DNA of 6,041 nucleotides from Verrucomicrobiota bacterium (GTDB lineage Bacteria; Verrucomicrobiota; Verrucomicrobiae; Chthoniobacterales; UBA10450): NCBI GenBank assembly GCA_005887855.1, contig VBQB01000326.1, forward strand, positions 1 to 6,041. Reading direction: 5' to 3'. The first letter of the stretch is position 1. The number at the start of each line of letters is the position of its first letter. Below, piece by piece: positions 547-6,041 of this stretch. The notes beneath the pieces were generated by a model. It saw only the letters and a list, made by a program, of their open reading frames with translations. It searched no databases and had not been told where the DNA came from. The translations under genes and the position numbers were made by a program.

Positions 547-708
547 TCACGGCTCTTTGAAACCGGCCGCGTGCTCGTGCGTCTCGATCACGTTGCCCGC
601 TGAATCGTAAACGCGAATCACGGCATCATGCGAGCGGCTGAAAAACTTCGCGTAGCCGAATCCGGCTCCGAGCGTCAAAAGCCTCGCACCAAATGGACGC
701 CCTGTTTT
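547..708 (-). pseudogene. Eroded copy of the 79-residue small protein family (C-terminal part)
   Basis: Read on the minus strand, the last about 38 residues match the intact protein at 919-1158: GYAKF(F/Y)SRSHDAVI followed by a V(Y/F)D-x-AGN-x-IE-T-x-EH segment and FKEP at the stop. Over the shared 110 bases (about 548-657 against 921-1030) I count roughly 16 mismatches, about 85% identity. The N-terminal half is lost or scrambled: a PFG-x-RL motif survives near 680-697, about seven residues are missing between it and GYAKF, and a TGA at 709-711 blocks the frame upstream. No start codon or ribosome binding site is apparent. It is therefore best read as a decayed paralogue. A short frame starting GTG in the ATGA-like overlap at its 3' end (20 codons) shows no similarity to the membrane gene that follows the intact copy. 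Confidence 0.75.
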
Positions 709-739
709 TCAATCGCGACGGACACGCTCGCCCAATCGC

Positions 740-922
740 TCAACGGCGCCTCACCAGCCAGATGACTGCGAGAATCGTTAGCAGTATCAAAACAGCGCCA
801 GCGGCGTAGGCGGCGAAAGCTGGTACGTGCTTGGGTCCTTCGCTTATGAACCCAACGCCTACCAAAACTAAGACCACGCCGATCAAAATTGTGCCGAGAT
901 ATGCCCTTGCTTGAGCTCTCAC
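740..922 (-). CDS. Small two-helix membrane protein
   Basis: A 60-residue protein starting at GTG (920-922) that overlaps the TGA of the preceding gene as GTGA, which suggests translational coupling. No separate ribosome binding site is visible. Two hydrophobic segments, about residues 8-27 and 35-57, are rich in Leu, Val, Ile and Gly. They are separated by a short polar turn containing SEGPKH. The protein ends in a basic WLVRRR tail, so both ends probably lie in the cytoplasm by the positive-inside rule. Length and layout resemble many uncharacterised small inner-membrane proteins and give no function. It is the last gene of the three-gene minus-strand unit 1520-740. The family is not recognised; holin-like or effector roles would be guesses. 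Confidence 0.65.
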   Translation of the reverse strand: MRAQARAYLGTILIGVVLVLVGVGFISEGPKHVPAFAAYAAGAVLILLTILAVIWLVRRR

Positions 923-1158
923 GGCTCTTTGAACTGGCCCGGGTGTTCGTACGTCTCGATCATATTGCCCGCTTCATCGAAAACGTGAATCACGGCATCG
1001 TGTGAGCGGCTGTAAAACTTCGCGTAGCCAATTGCATTGCTGATTGCGTCTGGCTCGCCGTACCAGAGGCGACCGAATGGCAGTGCATCGGAAATTAGAT
1101 TGACGCCGCGTTTATCATTGCGCGGGCGAATGTCGTAAACGTGCTGGCTAAAAATCAT
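919..1158 (-). CDS. Intact 79-residue member of a locally repeated small protein family
   Basis: The start ATG (1156-1158) overlaps the stop of the GIY-YIG gene as TAATG and is preceded by GGAGG at 1165-1169, six bases away. The protein is soluble, with no membrane segment. Recognisable pieces in order are VYDIRPRND (7-15), RGVNLISDALPFGRLWY (17-33), GEPDAISNAIGYAKF (34-48), SRSHDAVIHVFD (50-61) and a final EHPGQFKEP (71-79). The alternating hydrophobic pattern near 55-70 suggests a beta hairpin, with a helix around 37-50. I cannot name a characterised family. Two degenerate paralogues in this window conserve the same blocks, so this is a real protein family. Its stop overlaps the GTG of the membrane gene. 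Position between a GIY-YIG protein and a membrane protein suggests joint expression; function is unknown. Confidence 0.85.
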   Translation of the reverse strand: MIFSQHVYDIRPRNDKRGVNLISDALPFGRLWYGEPDAISNAIGYAKFYSRSHDAVIHVFDEAGNMIETYEHPGQFKEP

Positions 1159-1520
1159 TATTTCCCTCCAGTTACGGTATACCCTTCGGCTTTTAGATCC
1201 TCAGCCAATTCGATTTCCATCTGGGCCGCCGCCTCGAAGGGCATCGGATTTAAGTGTTTGTATAGTTCTGGCATCAATCGAACGCCATATTTCCTGACAA
1301 CCCAAGCTGATTTGTAGCCGTTCTTGTGATTTTCAAATCGGTGATCAACTGGTAATCCAGTCATTCCGACATACACGCAGGGCTTCAACAGATCACGCGT
1401 TGGATTGACGCGTAAAATCGATGGGTGCTTAGCAACAGCGTCGTCAAGCAGGACCACATAGACGCTGTGATGAAATTTCTGCTCTTTGGGCGTTCGCCTT
1501 AATTTTTGATTCGTACGCAT
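1158..1520 (-). CDS. GIY-YIG-fold nuclease-like protein
   Basis: A 120-residue protein, about one GIY-YIG domain long. The 'GIY' strand is represented by VYVVLL (20-25) and the 'YIG' strand by VYVGMT (49-54). These are followed by Arg61 and by His65 in R-x3-H, then by a helix with A-x2-ME-x-E-x-AEDLKAEGY (98-114), where Glu102 or Glu104 would supply the metal-binding glutamate. In characterised GIY-YIG enzymes these residues cut DNA. The first motif here departs from consensus (VYV for GIY), so activity is uncertain and a structural or repair role cannot be excluded. The N-terminus is basic (RTNQKLRRTPKEQK). The start ATG has only a weak upstream purine stretch. It is the first gene of a unit of three overlapping genes. 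Confidence 0.8.
   Translation of the reverse strand: MRTNQKLRRTPKEQKFHHSVYVVLLDDAVAKHPSILRVNPTRDLLKPCVYVGMTGLPVDHRFENHKNGYKSAWVVRKYGVRLMPELYKHLNPMPFEAAAQMEIELAEDLKAEGYTVTGGK
1165..1169 (-). promoter_or_regulatory. Shine-Dalgarno GGAGG for the 79-residue gene
   Basis: GGAGG on the minus strand lies six bases before the ATG at 1158, inside the last codons of the GIY-YIG gene. It fixes the start of the second gene. A GGAGG also precedes the presumed TTG start of the decayed copy (2325-2329), so the signal has been conserved between the paralogues. Confidence 0.8.
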
Positions 1521-1532
1521 CTATTTTTCAGT

Positions 1533-1546
1533 ATGTACCGTTACAT
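1533..1546. promoter_or_regulatory. Inverted repeat ATGTA-N4-TACAT upstream of the GIY-YIG gene
   Basis: A 5+4+5 dyad (ATGTACCGTTACAT) ends 13 bases upstream of the GIY-YIG start codon. It lies in the divergent gap between this unit and the Mth938 gene. Its location fits an operator for a small dimeric regulator. A weak minus-strand promoter with TTTACA at about 1558-1563 would put the dyad in or near the -10 region. Chance occurrence of a dyad this short cannot be excluded. Confidence 0.35.
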
Positions 1547-1565
1547 GTGAGCGGCTGTAAAACTT
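1546..1565 (-). repeat. 20-base exact copy of part of the 79-residue gene
   Basis: Bases 1546-1565 are identical to 1001-1020, the stretch that encodes KFYSRSH in the intact gene. Neither flank matches. A 20-base identity in a 6 kb window is not expected by chance. It is thus a fourth trace of the repeated family, left by a duplication, conversion or deletion event. It sits in the upstream region of the GIY-YIG operon and contributes the candidate TTTACA hexamer. Confidence 0.7.
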
Positions 1566-1659
1566 AAACTCCGACCAATGCACGATGGTATGAGCGCGAC
1601 GCGAAGTCTTAGAACCTCTGTCTCTTGCCTTGAAGCTTGAGCCAGCAGAACATTGAGAT

Positions 1660-2013
1660 ATGAAAGTACGACTGGTCAAATTTGGCGAGATCGAGGTCGA
1701 GGGAAAGCGCTACACCCATGATGTGGTGATCGACGGCGGCAAAGTACGGAAACGGAAGAAAGGACCTTCCAAGCAATTCCGCGAAAAGTTCGGCCACACG
1801 CCGCTTTCGGCCGGGGAAGAAATTCCCTGGCGAGGCAAGCGGCTCATTGTCGGGACCGGCGCCCATGGCGCGCTTCCGGTAATGGACGAAGTTCTAGCGG
1901 AGGCGAAACGGCGCGGTATCGAGGTCATTGCGGCGCCTACATTGGAAGTCTGTCAGCTGCTGGAGGAAGTGAAGAAGGGCCAAGCATATGCCATCCTGCA
2001 TTGCACGTGCTGA
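1660..2013 (+). CDS. Mth938/DUF498 domain protein
   Basis: A full-length 117-residue single-domain protein of the Mth938-like (DUF498, AAMDC in animals) family. Supporting motifs in order are FGEIEVEGKRY (8-18) with THDVVI (19-24), the basic KVRKRKKGPSK run (28-38), GHTPLS (45-50), EIPW (54-57), LIVGTGAHG (62-70), LPV (72-74), KRRGIEVIAAPT (83-94) and the terminal AILHCTC (111-117). The family is small, cytoplasmic and of poorly defined biochemistry; bacterial members are conserved hypotheticals. ATG at 1660 fits the family's usual N-terminus, although only a weak GAG lies before it. It is transcribed opposite to its neighbours, shares the 1521-1659 gap with the GIY-YIG unit, and looks intact and housekeeping-like beside the decaying small genes. 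Confidence 0.92.
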   Translation: MKVRLVKFGEIEVEGKRYTHDVVIDGGKVRKRKKGPSKQFREKFGHTPLSAGEEIPWRGKRLIVGTGAHGALPVMDEVLAEAKRRGIEVIAAPTLEVCQLLEEVKKGQAYAILHCTC

Positions 2014-2030
2014 CCGGGGATTTGTGTTCA

Positions 2031-2050
2031 GTTAGGGAGGGCGCCCTAAC
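2031..2050. terminator. Hairpin between convergent genes, terminator-like but without T-run
   Basis: GTTAGGG (2031-2037) pairs perfectly with CCCTAAC (2044-2050) around a six-base loop. The inner ten bases AGGGCGCCCT are themselves palindromic. It lies 17 bases after the Mth938 stop and between convergent genes, so a bidirectional transcript end is likely. Neither side has a clear T-tract, so classical intrinsic termination is not assured; it could be an RNA 3' stabiliser. Confidence 0.5.
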
Positions 2051-2086
2051 AGCGTGGCTTCGCACTTTATTCCTGGCTTGAAGTAA

Positions 2087-2320
2087 TCAGAATTCGCGGA
2101 AATCGCCCGCGTGCTCGTGTGGTTCGATCACGTTGCCTCGCTGAGTCGTACACGCGAATCACAGCATCTGACCAGCTGAAAAACTTGCCACATCCGATTG
2201 CGTTGTTGATTGCGTTCGGTTCGGCGTACCACAGCCGATCCAATGGCAGCGTATCGGAGATCAGATCGACGCCGCGATGATCGCGGCGGGCCCGGACTTC
2301 GTATAAACGCGGAGTTTCAA
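2087..2320 (-). pseudogene. Frameshifted copy of the 79-residue small protein family
   Basis: The minus strand encodes YEVRARRDHRGVDLISD, LWYAEPNAINNAIG, GKFF and SDAVIRVYD, closely matching the intact protein at 919-1158. Two frame breaks separate this from its ends. An extra T at 2138 shifts the C-terminus; without it the frame reads D-S-A-GNVIEPHEHAGDFREF and stops at TGA 2087-2089, just like the other copies. Near 2302-2305 two extra bases (TATA for TA) separate the body from a TTG start at 2318-2320, which has GGAGG at 2325-2329. With those two bases removed the N-terminus reads (M)KLRVYEVRARRD, matching the family. One codon is also missing in the SRSHDAV motif. The uninterrupted frame 2067-2408 that spans this region is therefore probably an artefact of the frameshifts, although a functional variant protein cannot be strictly excluded. 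Confidence 0.75.
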
Positions 2321-3787: not shown

Positions 3788-3931
3788 AGCGAACCCGATC
3801 ACGTCATGCGACGTTTCAACGAGTCTTCGGGCGGGTTGAAGGAAAAGTCCGCGGGGCTGGACGTTCGGGGGGACAGCGCCTAACACGATCTCGAGATCCA
3901 ACTGAGTCCCTAGTCAGCGGAAGTGAGCGTC

Positions 3932-6041
3932 ATGATATCGCGACGAATGGCAATCTTGGCAATCACCGCGGGAATCACGTTGTGGTGGATTGTGCAGGCG
4001 AATGGACTGCCTGAAACCTATCGGTCCGGTGTTACTGATTTATCCGGATACACCGGCAGCGACTCCTGGCAACATGCCCTCGCCATTCAGGCCGGAACGG
4101 TCAGCGAGATATTTTACGCGCCGGACCGGAGAAGTGGTTCGGTCGAGGTTGGCCGGGTGCCATCAGCTCTAGCGATTGCCAGCTATGTTGCTCGCGGGTT
4201 TCGGTCTCATAACGTCGTACTCGTGCTTCAAGACGATGGCGACGTAATTCAACTGTGGTTTCGTTCCGATGGCGACGTCGGAAGCCGTGTGTTGGGCCGC
4301 ATTGATCGCGCAATCGACTTGGCGGGTTTTGAAGACGTGGACCTAACCCAGCATGCGCTTGTTCTCGACACAGACGGCGATTTGATTGAGTTCACATGGA
4401 AGCAGGGGGCCGGGACAGTGAGCCGGCAACAAATTACTAAGCTGGCTGGCGCCTTCCGGATCGGCGGCTTTCAGGCGGAAGACGACGGTCGCTTTATCGT
4501 GATCGCAGGAGATCAGAACGGGCGCATTCGCGAGGTATTCTATCGCGGAAAGGACGTTGGTGTGGGAGAACTTATCGGCCCGGGATTACCGCTAGCAGAT
4601 GTTAGCGGCTTAGGTTTAGGCACTGCGCCCCTCTTCAGCGACATCAAAGCCAGACGTGTGGCCGGATTCGCCAGCGAAAACGGTTGGCGCCATGTCCTGG
4701 TCGGCACCAGCGATGATCGAATCCGCGAGTGGGCTTACAATCCGAGTCAGGAGCCGAGGGATCAGGAACTCCAAAGCCTGCCAAAGGCTACCACCACGGC
4801 GCGCTCCGCCGGCCCTATGGTAGCTTTCGAGCGTGTGGCAAAGCAGATTAGTCCGTCAGCAGCGGGACTGGTCTATGCAATCGCGGGCACCGAGGAGCTA
4901 AGTTATCTGGTTACCCAAAATGCTGGAGTATGGCGCTACTTCCCAGGTAGCACCTCCTGGCAATCACTGCCGGTGTCGCCGCGGTATTCCCAGAGTATCG
5001 CTGTCGACCCCAATGACGTACGGCATCTATTCGTGGGCGAGCGGGATGGTGATGCAGGCAAAGACGACAGCGAATTGAGCTTTAACTGGGCGGGCCTTTG
5101 GGAGTCGAATGATGCTGGCGAAACTTGGGAGTACGTACTTGATCCGCTGACTTTGGCTAATTCGTCAGCGCCGCTGTCGAAGTGCAATTCGCAAGCGGTA
5201 CCGTCGATAATGCCCTTGAGCGACGGCGGGGCCTTGGTCGCCACACAGTGTACGATCCTACGACGGGAAGGGCGAAGCCCCGCGACGTTCAAGTCTTTGG
5301 ACGGATTCTGGGGACTTGGGCCATTTACGGGCGTCGCCGTAACGGGCGTTTCCGGCACGAGCACGGCAACCCAAAATTGGATCTGGGCAAGCACTCCGAA
5401 TGCGTTGTTGTGGTCTGATGACGATGGTGTAACGGCGCACCGCGAAGTGATTCCGAATGTAGCAACGGATCCGTTAGGCAATCCTCGGTCATTAAAAATC
5501 GGAGGCCCTCGTGGTGCCGGGTTCGGACTAGCGGCGTACGGGCCGCGCGCGGCAGTTGTGGTGCAGATGGAAGACCCTACTGCACTAAGTGATCGAATTG
5601 CAAGTCTAGAGTTCGATGTTGTCCAGCGGACGTGGGTGGTAGACCCAGTCGATGCCGGTGATGGGACTGGACTTGGTGGCCGACTATTCATCAAAGCGGA
5701 GCGTGCCGAGAGCTATACAAGTCGCACAGGATACTCGGACGCGCTCCTGTTGTCAGGAGCGCAAACGCTATTCTTGGGGATACCGCGCAGGAGCGGCGGA
5801 CTATTACAGCCGGGAGGAGTCGCACGCAGAGGTATTGTGTGGCGTGCCGTCGCGGAGACGCCGTGGGGCCCAACCCCGCCTGATCACTACCTCCTAAATG
5901 CTCCGTCTGCTATTCATTGTGATTTGTGGGATGCGCACATTAGCCATCACCCTAGTGGTGCTGTCTTGCTGATTGCTTCCGACGGCGGTGTGGCGAGGTC
6001 ACCGATTGAAAACGTCCTTTCGACCAGTGTTGGTGATTCTC
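3932..6041 (+). CDS. Large secreted beta-propeller protein, 3'-partial
   Basis: One frame runs from ATG 3932 through the window edge without a stop, giving 703 residues so far. An in-frame TAG at 3911 limits the start; GTG 3923 and ATG 3947 are alternatives, but ATG 3932 has GGAAG-type purines about eight bases upstream and gives the n-region MISRR. Residues 6-23 form a hydrophobic signal peptide (cleavage likely after VQA, 23). Propeller-type strands recur as VVLVLQDDGDVIQLW (95-109), ALVLDTDGDLIEFTW (142-156), FIVIAGDQNGRIREVFY (187-203) and HVLVGTSDDRIREWAY (254-269), reminiscent of tachylectin/fucolectin-type blades. Then IAVDPND (356-362) precedes a canonical Asp-box, SNDAGETW (392-399). 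Degenerate boxes SDDDGVT (495-501) and SDGGVARS (683-690) follow, as in BNR/sortilin-like propellers. Cysteines are few (418, 440, 663). It probably acts outside the cytoplasm, in carbohydrate or surface binding, or as a glycoside hydrolase-like protein. No catalytic residues can be assigned. Confidence 0.88.
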   Translation, partial: MISRRMAILAITAGITLWWIVQANGLPETYRSGVTDLSGYTGSDSWQHALAIQAGTVSEIFYAPDRRSGSVEVGRVPSALAIASYVARGFRSHNVVLVLQDDGDVIQLWFRSDGDVGSRVLGRIDRAIDLAGFEDVDLTQHALVLDTDGDLIEFTWKQGAGTVSRQQITKLAGAFRIGGFQAEDDGRFIVIAGDQNGRIREVFYRGKDVGVGELIGPGLPLADVSGLGLGTAPLFSDIKARRVAGFASENGWRHVLVGTSDDRIREWAYNPSQEPRDQELQSLPKATTTARSAGPMVAFERVAKQISPSAAGLVYAIAGTEELSYLVTQNAGVWRYFPGSTSWQSLPVSPRYSQSIAVDPNDVRHLFVGERDGDAGKDDSELSFNWAGLWESNDAGETWEYVLDPLTLANSSAPLSKCNSQAVPSIMPLSDGGALVATQCTILRREGRSPATFKSLDGFWGLGPFTGVAVTGVSGTSTATQNWIWASTPNALLWSDDDGVTAHREVIPNVATDPLGNPRSLKIGGPRGAGFGLAAYGPRAAVVVQMEDPTALSDRIASLEFDVVQRTWVVDPVDAGDGTGLGGRLFIKAERAESYTSRTGYSDALLLSGAQTLFLGIPRRSGGLLQPGGVARRGIVWRAVAETPWGPTPPDHYLLNAPSAIHCDLWDAHISHHPSGAVLLIASDGGVARSPIENVLSTSVGDS

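Follow-up and report, generated by a model that had tools for sequence, protein, structure and literature searches.

The stretch of DNA studied here (6,041 nt, hereafter the window) carries one intact and three damaged copies of a gene of 79 codons, whose family we call fam1; in what follows, L numbers designate loci and G numbers genomes. What the comparison of these copies with their relatives offers is a view of a system of polar, mosaic arrays that extends through a whole genus and centres on short coding repeats. We tentatively read the window as a piece of such an array in a Candidatus Udaeobacter-like genome, with modules shuffled by recombination between direct repeats, a reading to which we grant somewhat less than an even chance.

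All four copies in the window lie on the minus strand. As an earlier note on this DNA, made from the sequence alone, had described, the intact gene occupies 919-1158; a Shine-Dalgarno-like GGAGGG at 1164-1169 precedes its ATG, and its start codon shares one base with the stop codon of the upstream open reading frame (ORF). The same note had placed an eroded copy at 547-708, with about 85% identity over 110 bases: the homology holds (111 bases, 85.6% identity to the intact gene), but its extent had to be revised, the 5'-truncated copy covering 547-657 only, with its 3' end intact and ending at the same stop codon as the intact gene, and 658-708 having no homology to fam1. A third copy, announced as frameshifted at 2087-2320, is found at 2087-2310 with about 75% gapped identity and is indeed frame-broken, because of gaps in its alignment to the intact gene; the local alignment (2099-2282) has 187 columns, 74.9% identity and four gap positions, and a global alignment adds further small gaps. 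By comparison with these 111 and 187 columns, the longest chance alignment to the gene reached 37 columns in 200 single-base shuffles of the window (E ≤ 10). The last copy, at 1544-1565, contains the 20 exact bases reported at 1546-1565, and its 22 bases are 91% identical to 627-648 in the truncated copy. The 20-base fragment is below the length usable in the shuffle test, and we take it as a relic because of the exact match and because, in L024, the same DUF498-bearing segment as in the window (see below) is followed at the equivalent place by a longer fam1 piece (L024:3109-3222).

What is repeated is just the coding sequence, a unit of about 225 bp: in 30 full copies, base conservation runs from about codon 6 to the stop codon, with nil conservation in the flanks on both sides. 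No hairpin was found in the unit (DNA fold z +0.96 for the intact window copy). Among 177 internal copies, 47 are full, 34 are truncated at both ends, and the rest are truncated on one side, 74 of them at the 5' end and 22 at the 3' end. When repeats were sought across about 550 kb of loci, fam1 was dominant, a rank that holds for these loci, which were fetched mostly for their fam1 content; the second short coding repeat, fam3, is about 185 bp long. It has sharp boundaries with nil conservation just outside (17 copies), no stop codon of its own, differences distributed over codon positions as 28/23/49%, and no 5' truncation bias like that of fam1. An example is the minus-strand coding sequence at L003:3861-4047, which reads KYWEIIADNLSKAGW...LESAI and lies antiparallel to fam1.

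Both repeats are dispersed throughout one genus. In the genus of G001, fam1 is present in 35 of 35 genomes, with 1-49 matches in each, which supplies the count of paralogues per genome that the earlier note had proposed; the matches sum to 323, a figure in which one broken copy may count twice. fam3 is present in 34 of the 35, and a protein search for it gave at least 7,989 homologous clusters. At the family level, 44 of 83 genomes carry fam1, nine of them outside the genus with 1 to 5 matches each, and in a phylum-wide draw of 288 genomes it was found in G001 itself and in none of the 287 others. A search of genome contigs gave 41 fam1 loci, of which 38 are titled Verrucomicrobia, one Chthoniobacterales and two Acidobacteria; the latter two (L003 and L022) have repeats in common with other loci and may be misbinned. 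The genus is probably Candidatus Udaeobacter, because a fam3 homologue (P0277) bears this name and the loci are mostly Verrucomicrobia metagenome-assembled genomes (MAGs).

Neighbouring elements of an array nearly always agree in direction. We compared adjacent fam1 and fam3 elements on 77 contigs, reading fam3 in reverse, and among the matches listed, which favour the best ones, polarity agreed in 112 of 114 pairs closer than 3 kb and in 18 of 19 pairs at 3-6 kb, that is, in 130 of 133 pairs under 6 kb; agreement then falls off (4/6 at 6-12 kb and 5/7 beyond), and polarity is uniform on 70 of the 77 contigs. Single genomes behave alike, with agreement in 23 of 23 pairs 0.3-6 kb apart in G001 (10 contigs) and in 30 of 31 in G003 (12 contigs). 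A count over loci gave 91 same against 5 opposite pairs, each opposite pair including a match of 37-58 bases. Relative to fam1, fam3 runs antiparallel in 121 of 126 pairs no more than 3 kb apart, in loci that are partly redundant, and in 75 of 76 without known duplicates. The lock also reaches other modules: among 15 that we chose near fam1 and scored as same:opposite relative to it, ten are strictly locked, namely fam8 (24:0), fam16 (13:0), fam21 (16:0; probably part of the fam8 family), fam18 (8:0), fam22 (4:0), fam11 (4:0), DUF498 (0:5), L071_17578 (13:0), L027_6499 (5:0) and L033_5645 (8:0).

This polarity lock is not a gene-strand effect, as the surrounding long open frames are unbiased: 52% of the residues in open frames of at least 200 amino acids are on fam1's strand (bootstrap 45-59%). 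A replication-linked orientation was considered and rejected, fam1 direction having no tie to guanine-cytosine (GC) skew, which is positive in 21 of 40 contigs, although GC skew is weak here and the comparison hence not conclusive. Among skewed words of 6 to 9 bases, those of the CAACAC/GTGTTG type exceed the random-flip maximum at lengths 6, 8 and 9, an excess that we tentatively attribute to a GTGTTG-rich repeat seen in L002. Long low-complexity tandem repeats of this and similar kinds occur in the same clusters (L002:3943-4599, L009:2583-2837, L072:15959-16199).

Neighbouring copies are not each other's kin. We compared 100 fam1 copies that have sufficient aligned bases and come from 39 genomes or sources; the nearest relative lies on the same contig for one copy (0.88 at random) and in the same genome for 15 (8 at random, maximum 19). 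Mean identity is 0.749 within a contig, 0.776 between contigs of the same genome and 0.747 between genomes; the intact window copy is closest to a copy of G004 (0.88). Local tandem duplication of fam1 was thus rejected, same-contig copies being no closer than copies from different genomes, which agrees with the earlier preference for insertion or recombination and turnover of small modules; we found neither an origin of the copies in one local tandem duplication without mobility nor a known housekeeping protein present once elsewhere. In the absence of same-contig kinship, the copies behave as if they came from a shared pool, yet they land in one orientation.

Shared segments end at a fam1 end more often than expected at random, although most of them end elsewhere. 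In a strict count (oriented loci, collapsed ends, shared segments of at least 85% identity, 104 alignments), 9 of 138 right ends coincide with the 3' end of a fam1 copy, where 0.44% of random positions fall; of the 146 left ends, 11 are at a 5' or truncation end of fam1, compared with 0.77% at random. In a looser count, 26 of 129 left and 23 of 126 right ends are at fam1, against 6.1% at random. This is clearest for a module of about 470 bp, enclosed in three loci (L060, L061 and L071) by direct repeats that correspond to about 50 bp of the fam1 3' end: its neighbours in L060 and L061 are a complete fam1 copy and a 3' piece of fam1, those in L071 two 3'-end pieces of about 50 bases. To its right, homology stops at the fam1 stop codon or at most 15 bases after it, and three different sequences follow. 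In L061, the module next to it is the DUF498 segment of the window, which lies between fam1 pieces in L024 and, in the window, between the 2087-2310 copy and the 20-base relic. L109 and L111 have a fam1 copy and its upstream context in common, and different DNA from the last codon on. No sequence motif common to module ends was found beyond pieces of fam3 and of the DUF498 module.

The polar mosaic array could then work as follows. A module would be a gene or non-coding stretch plus a fam1 copy or fam1 3' end, and modules would be gained or lost through recombination between direct repeats, mostly fam1, which outnumbers every other repeat in the array loci examined, these having been fetched for holding it. 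A circle or incoming strand with a fam1 stretch would recombine with a resident fam1 copy, the outcome being a module with a directly oriented fam1 piece on either side; recombination between direct repeats would therefore keep modules in one orientation relative to their neighbours. What the data show directly is the dispersal of a sharply bounded repeat, the polarity lock, the missing kinship between neighbours, the enrichment of junctions at fam1 ends and, in three loci, one module between fam1 direct repeats; we infer both this route and the import of modules from a population-wide pool.

Several observations weigh against this reading. Most shared-segment ends lie outside fam1 (117 of the 138 on the right, 122 of the 146 on the left), and one module supplies four of the nine right-end matches in the strict count. 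An earlier end count at lower identity put 51 of 818 ends at family copies against 131.9 expected (identity of at least 75%) and 23 of 167 against 25.5 (85%); the same count gives an excess at 90% (17 of 49 against 9.2 expected). The other five of the 15 modules are not strictly locked (fam12 3:7, L082dn 3:2, L028_4865 3:1, GIY-like 1:2, hairpin20 10:1). One has to keep in mind that copies about 75% identical, as is typical of fam1, are poor substrates for RecA. We found no empty site whose two flanks are intact, and circles are not visible in assemblies. Lastly, a 314-bp segment is present twice in L046, which makes at least one duplication inside a cluster, and duplication plus deletion could produce part of the pattern.

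The arrays might instead be decayed or modified sedentary chromosomal integrons, which fam1, fam3 and the other modules entered as fixed-orientation cassettes via an integrase, the attC sites having since eroded; we hold this to be unlikely, if far from negligible. Integrons do produce a polarity lock, and an integron integrase (TIGR02249, E ≤ 1e-30) is found in 16 of the 35 genus genomes, over cut-off in 10 and broken in several, these MAGs being incomplete. A strict attC pattern had no match in the loci, and a relaxed one gave two distinct sites (L056 and L080, four rows) against none in shuffled DNA; at a looser setting it was no better than shuffled DNA (4 against 6), and attC sites were therefore sought by arm complementarity. 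Six distinct complete attC-like hairpin sites are present in the loci examined, of which four share a contig with an integrase or a piece of one (L080:17424-17519, L081:644-747, L146:510-632, L155:2648-2771, by arm complementarity); an attC-like site was also seen by eye in another such contig (L078:1-150). A scan of 1.09 Mb of loci gave 23 distinct places with the attC-like 5' half motif (at most 4 mismatches; one in L092 is probably identical with one in L015) against none in shuffled DNA, and in seven of the 23 a same-strand fam1 copy follows within 0-66 bases. A loose translated half-site pattern stands upstream of the core in 19 of 168 homologous proteins, at least one of which (P0141) looks like chance. 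Set against this are the six complete sites for well over 150 fam1 copies, and the nil conservation just outside fam1 and fam3, hence no site common to all copies. The antisense position of fam3 and the DUF498 gene relative to fam1 is unusual for cassettes, and copy-rich genomes such as G003 (49 matches) and G002 (25) are without a clear integrase, G003 having two short integrase-like pieces. Complete attC-like sites being too rare, we did not file the arrays as integrons; the half-motif count being stronger, we slightly raised the likelihood of the integron explanation and lowered that of the polar mosaic array to the level given at the outset.

Could fam1 and fam3 insert themselves? As small non-autonomous mobile elements, resembling miniature inverted-repeat transposable elements (MITEs) or copied from an RNA template, their units would end sharply at one and the same point in unrelated surroundings, as is seen, the excess of 5' truncations (74 against 22 at the 3' end) would reflect copying, and the variable N- and C-terminal extensions read from the flank would fit as well. 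We nevertheless consider this distinctly unlikely: the unit lacks a hairpin, fam3 lacks the truncation bias, the codon-position bias of fam1 (27/23/50%) points to protein constraint, and random insertion is not expected to give a polarity lock reaching unrelated modules. Very unlikely, in our judgement, are ancient, vertically inherited arrays altered only by deletion and local duplication without inversion, in which polarity would merely be conserved. Some neighbours do keep the same order across species (L024 and the window around DUF498; L109 and L111), the L046 duplication is of the expected kind, and identity is slightly higher within genomes than between them, with 15 nearest relatives in the same genome, within the random maximum of 19; but same-contig copies are not mutual relatives, and the same module occurs in different contexts (the ~470-bp module in L060, L061 and L071; DUF498 in L024, L061, L127 and the window). 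A slim chance also goes to the fam1 3' end being a genuine recombination site, in an integron-like cassette system of the genus whose site would be part of the cassette gene's own coding region and would direct the polar capture and loss of modules across many chromosomal clusters.

Known systems resemble the polar mosaic array in part. Sedentary chromosomal integrons too form polar arrays in which small, mostly unnamed genes turn over, and the integrase is present in the genus; here, however, complete attC sites are few, a coding sequence is what is repeated, and several modules are antisense to the repeat. Insertion by single crossover between direct repeats preserves orientation and leaves the insert flanked by direct repeats, as proposed here; the known cases use long, nearly identical repeats, unlike fam1 copies at about 75% identity. 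The Rickettsia palindromic elements, protein-coding bacterial MITEs, are described as palindromic, 105-146 bp long, with an open frame, and intergenic or fused in frame to neighbours (PMC2229807). fam1 is similar as a short repeat with an open frame, both intergenic and fused in frame to neighbours, and differs in not being palindromic, in its length of about 225 bp, in ending at a stop codon, and in its amino-acid constraint and local orientation lock. Literature searches on Udaeobacter repeats, paralogs and hypothetical proteins found no paper, and those on integrons and attC in Verrucomicrobia none on such arrays, judged by title, which does not prove absence in print. If short coding repeats do organise polar module exchange, they would contribute to genome plasticity in this lineage and stand somewhere between gene family, repeat element and integron. 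The idea can be tested through the polarity lock, from which fam1-derived junctions are expected both in circles and in modules newly gained.

The fam1 protein has no match above cut-off in Pfam or NCBIfam, in keeping with the earlier note, which could give the family no name. Homologues are numerous: a protein search gave at least 7,985 homologous clusters (7,985 of 7,994 scored candidates) and a profile search at least 7,997 matching ones (7,997 of 7,997 candidates). A toxin-antitoxin, defence or phage origin, a parallel drawn in the earlier note, was not borne out: PHROGs and PADLOC gave no match at E ≤ 0.1 for the five proteins given, searches of 50,697 phage and 72,556 plasmid records did not turn up fam1, and in viral contigs scanned with two peptide patterns, 18 stretches matched one pattern and none was confirmed as fam1. 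Base differences among 22 gap-free copies fall on codon positions 1/2/3 as 27/23/50%, which implies that the protein is or was under amino-acid selection, though many copies are broken. The last codon encodes Trp in 76 and Pro in 67 of 168 proteins, mostly as TGG or CCG, and N-terminal or C-terminal extensions are variable and read from flanking DNA. The structure prediction that the earlier note had asked for gave a strand-strand-helix-strand-strand fold for the 79-residue protein, with modest confidence (predicted local distance difference test, pLDDT, 69.9). Neither PDB nor BFVD yielded a convincing relative of this model, and a profile search of PDB gave no meaningful E-value (best 0.21). 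The predicted order of strands and helix and an H-x-x-P-R-x-D start may resemble those of DUF2188-like small proteins, a likeness that serves as a lead; fam1 differs in that neither the window gene nor any of 84 aligned members scanned matched Pfam DUF2188.

Around the fam1 copies, the window contains other features. The DUF498 segment (1577-2024) is 91.7% identical to L024:2651-3097, 93.9% identical over 197 bases to L061, and 93% identical to L127 of G001; it stands directly beside fam1 pieces in L024 and L061, and in L127 the nearest fam1 piece is about 900 bases off. Its plus-strand gene (1660-2013) matches DUF498/DUF598 (PF04430) at 33.7 bits against a cut-off of 33, and is antiparallel to fam1 in five of the five places where it lies near fam1. 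A few bases from the end of this module, 2031-2050 reads GTTAGGGAGGGCGCCCTAAC, an inverted repeat with attC-core-like ends; the search by arm complementarity gave no attC site in the window, 2031-2050 included. Two minus-strand ORFs adjoin the intact gene. One of 120 amino acids (1158-1520), without a family match, has the stop codon that shares one base with the fam1 start codon, and related DNA in L070:6674-6984 (78%); the other, of 60 amino acids (740-922), looks hydrophobic by eye, has no family match over cut-off, and its GTG start overlaps the fam1 stop codon. The segment at 3-515 is shared with G002 (L082:13110-13622, 92.6% identity), and this homology stops about 30 bases before the first fam1 copy. 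On the other side, 3796-3927 is a member of the dispersed repeat fam12, also seen in L020, L022, L035, L072 and L074 and not orientation-locked to fam1, and beyond the array 3932-6041 probably holds a long plus-strand gene that runs off the end of the window.

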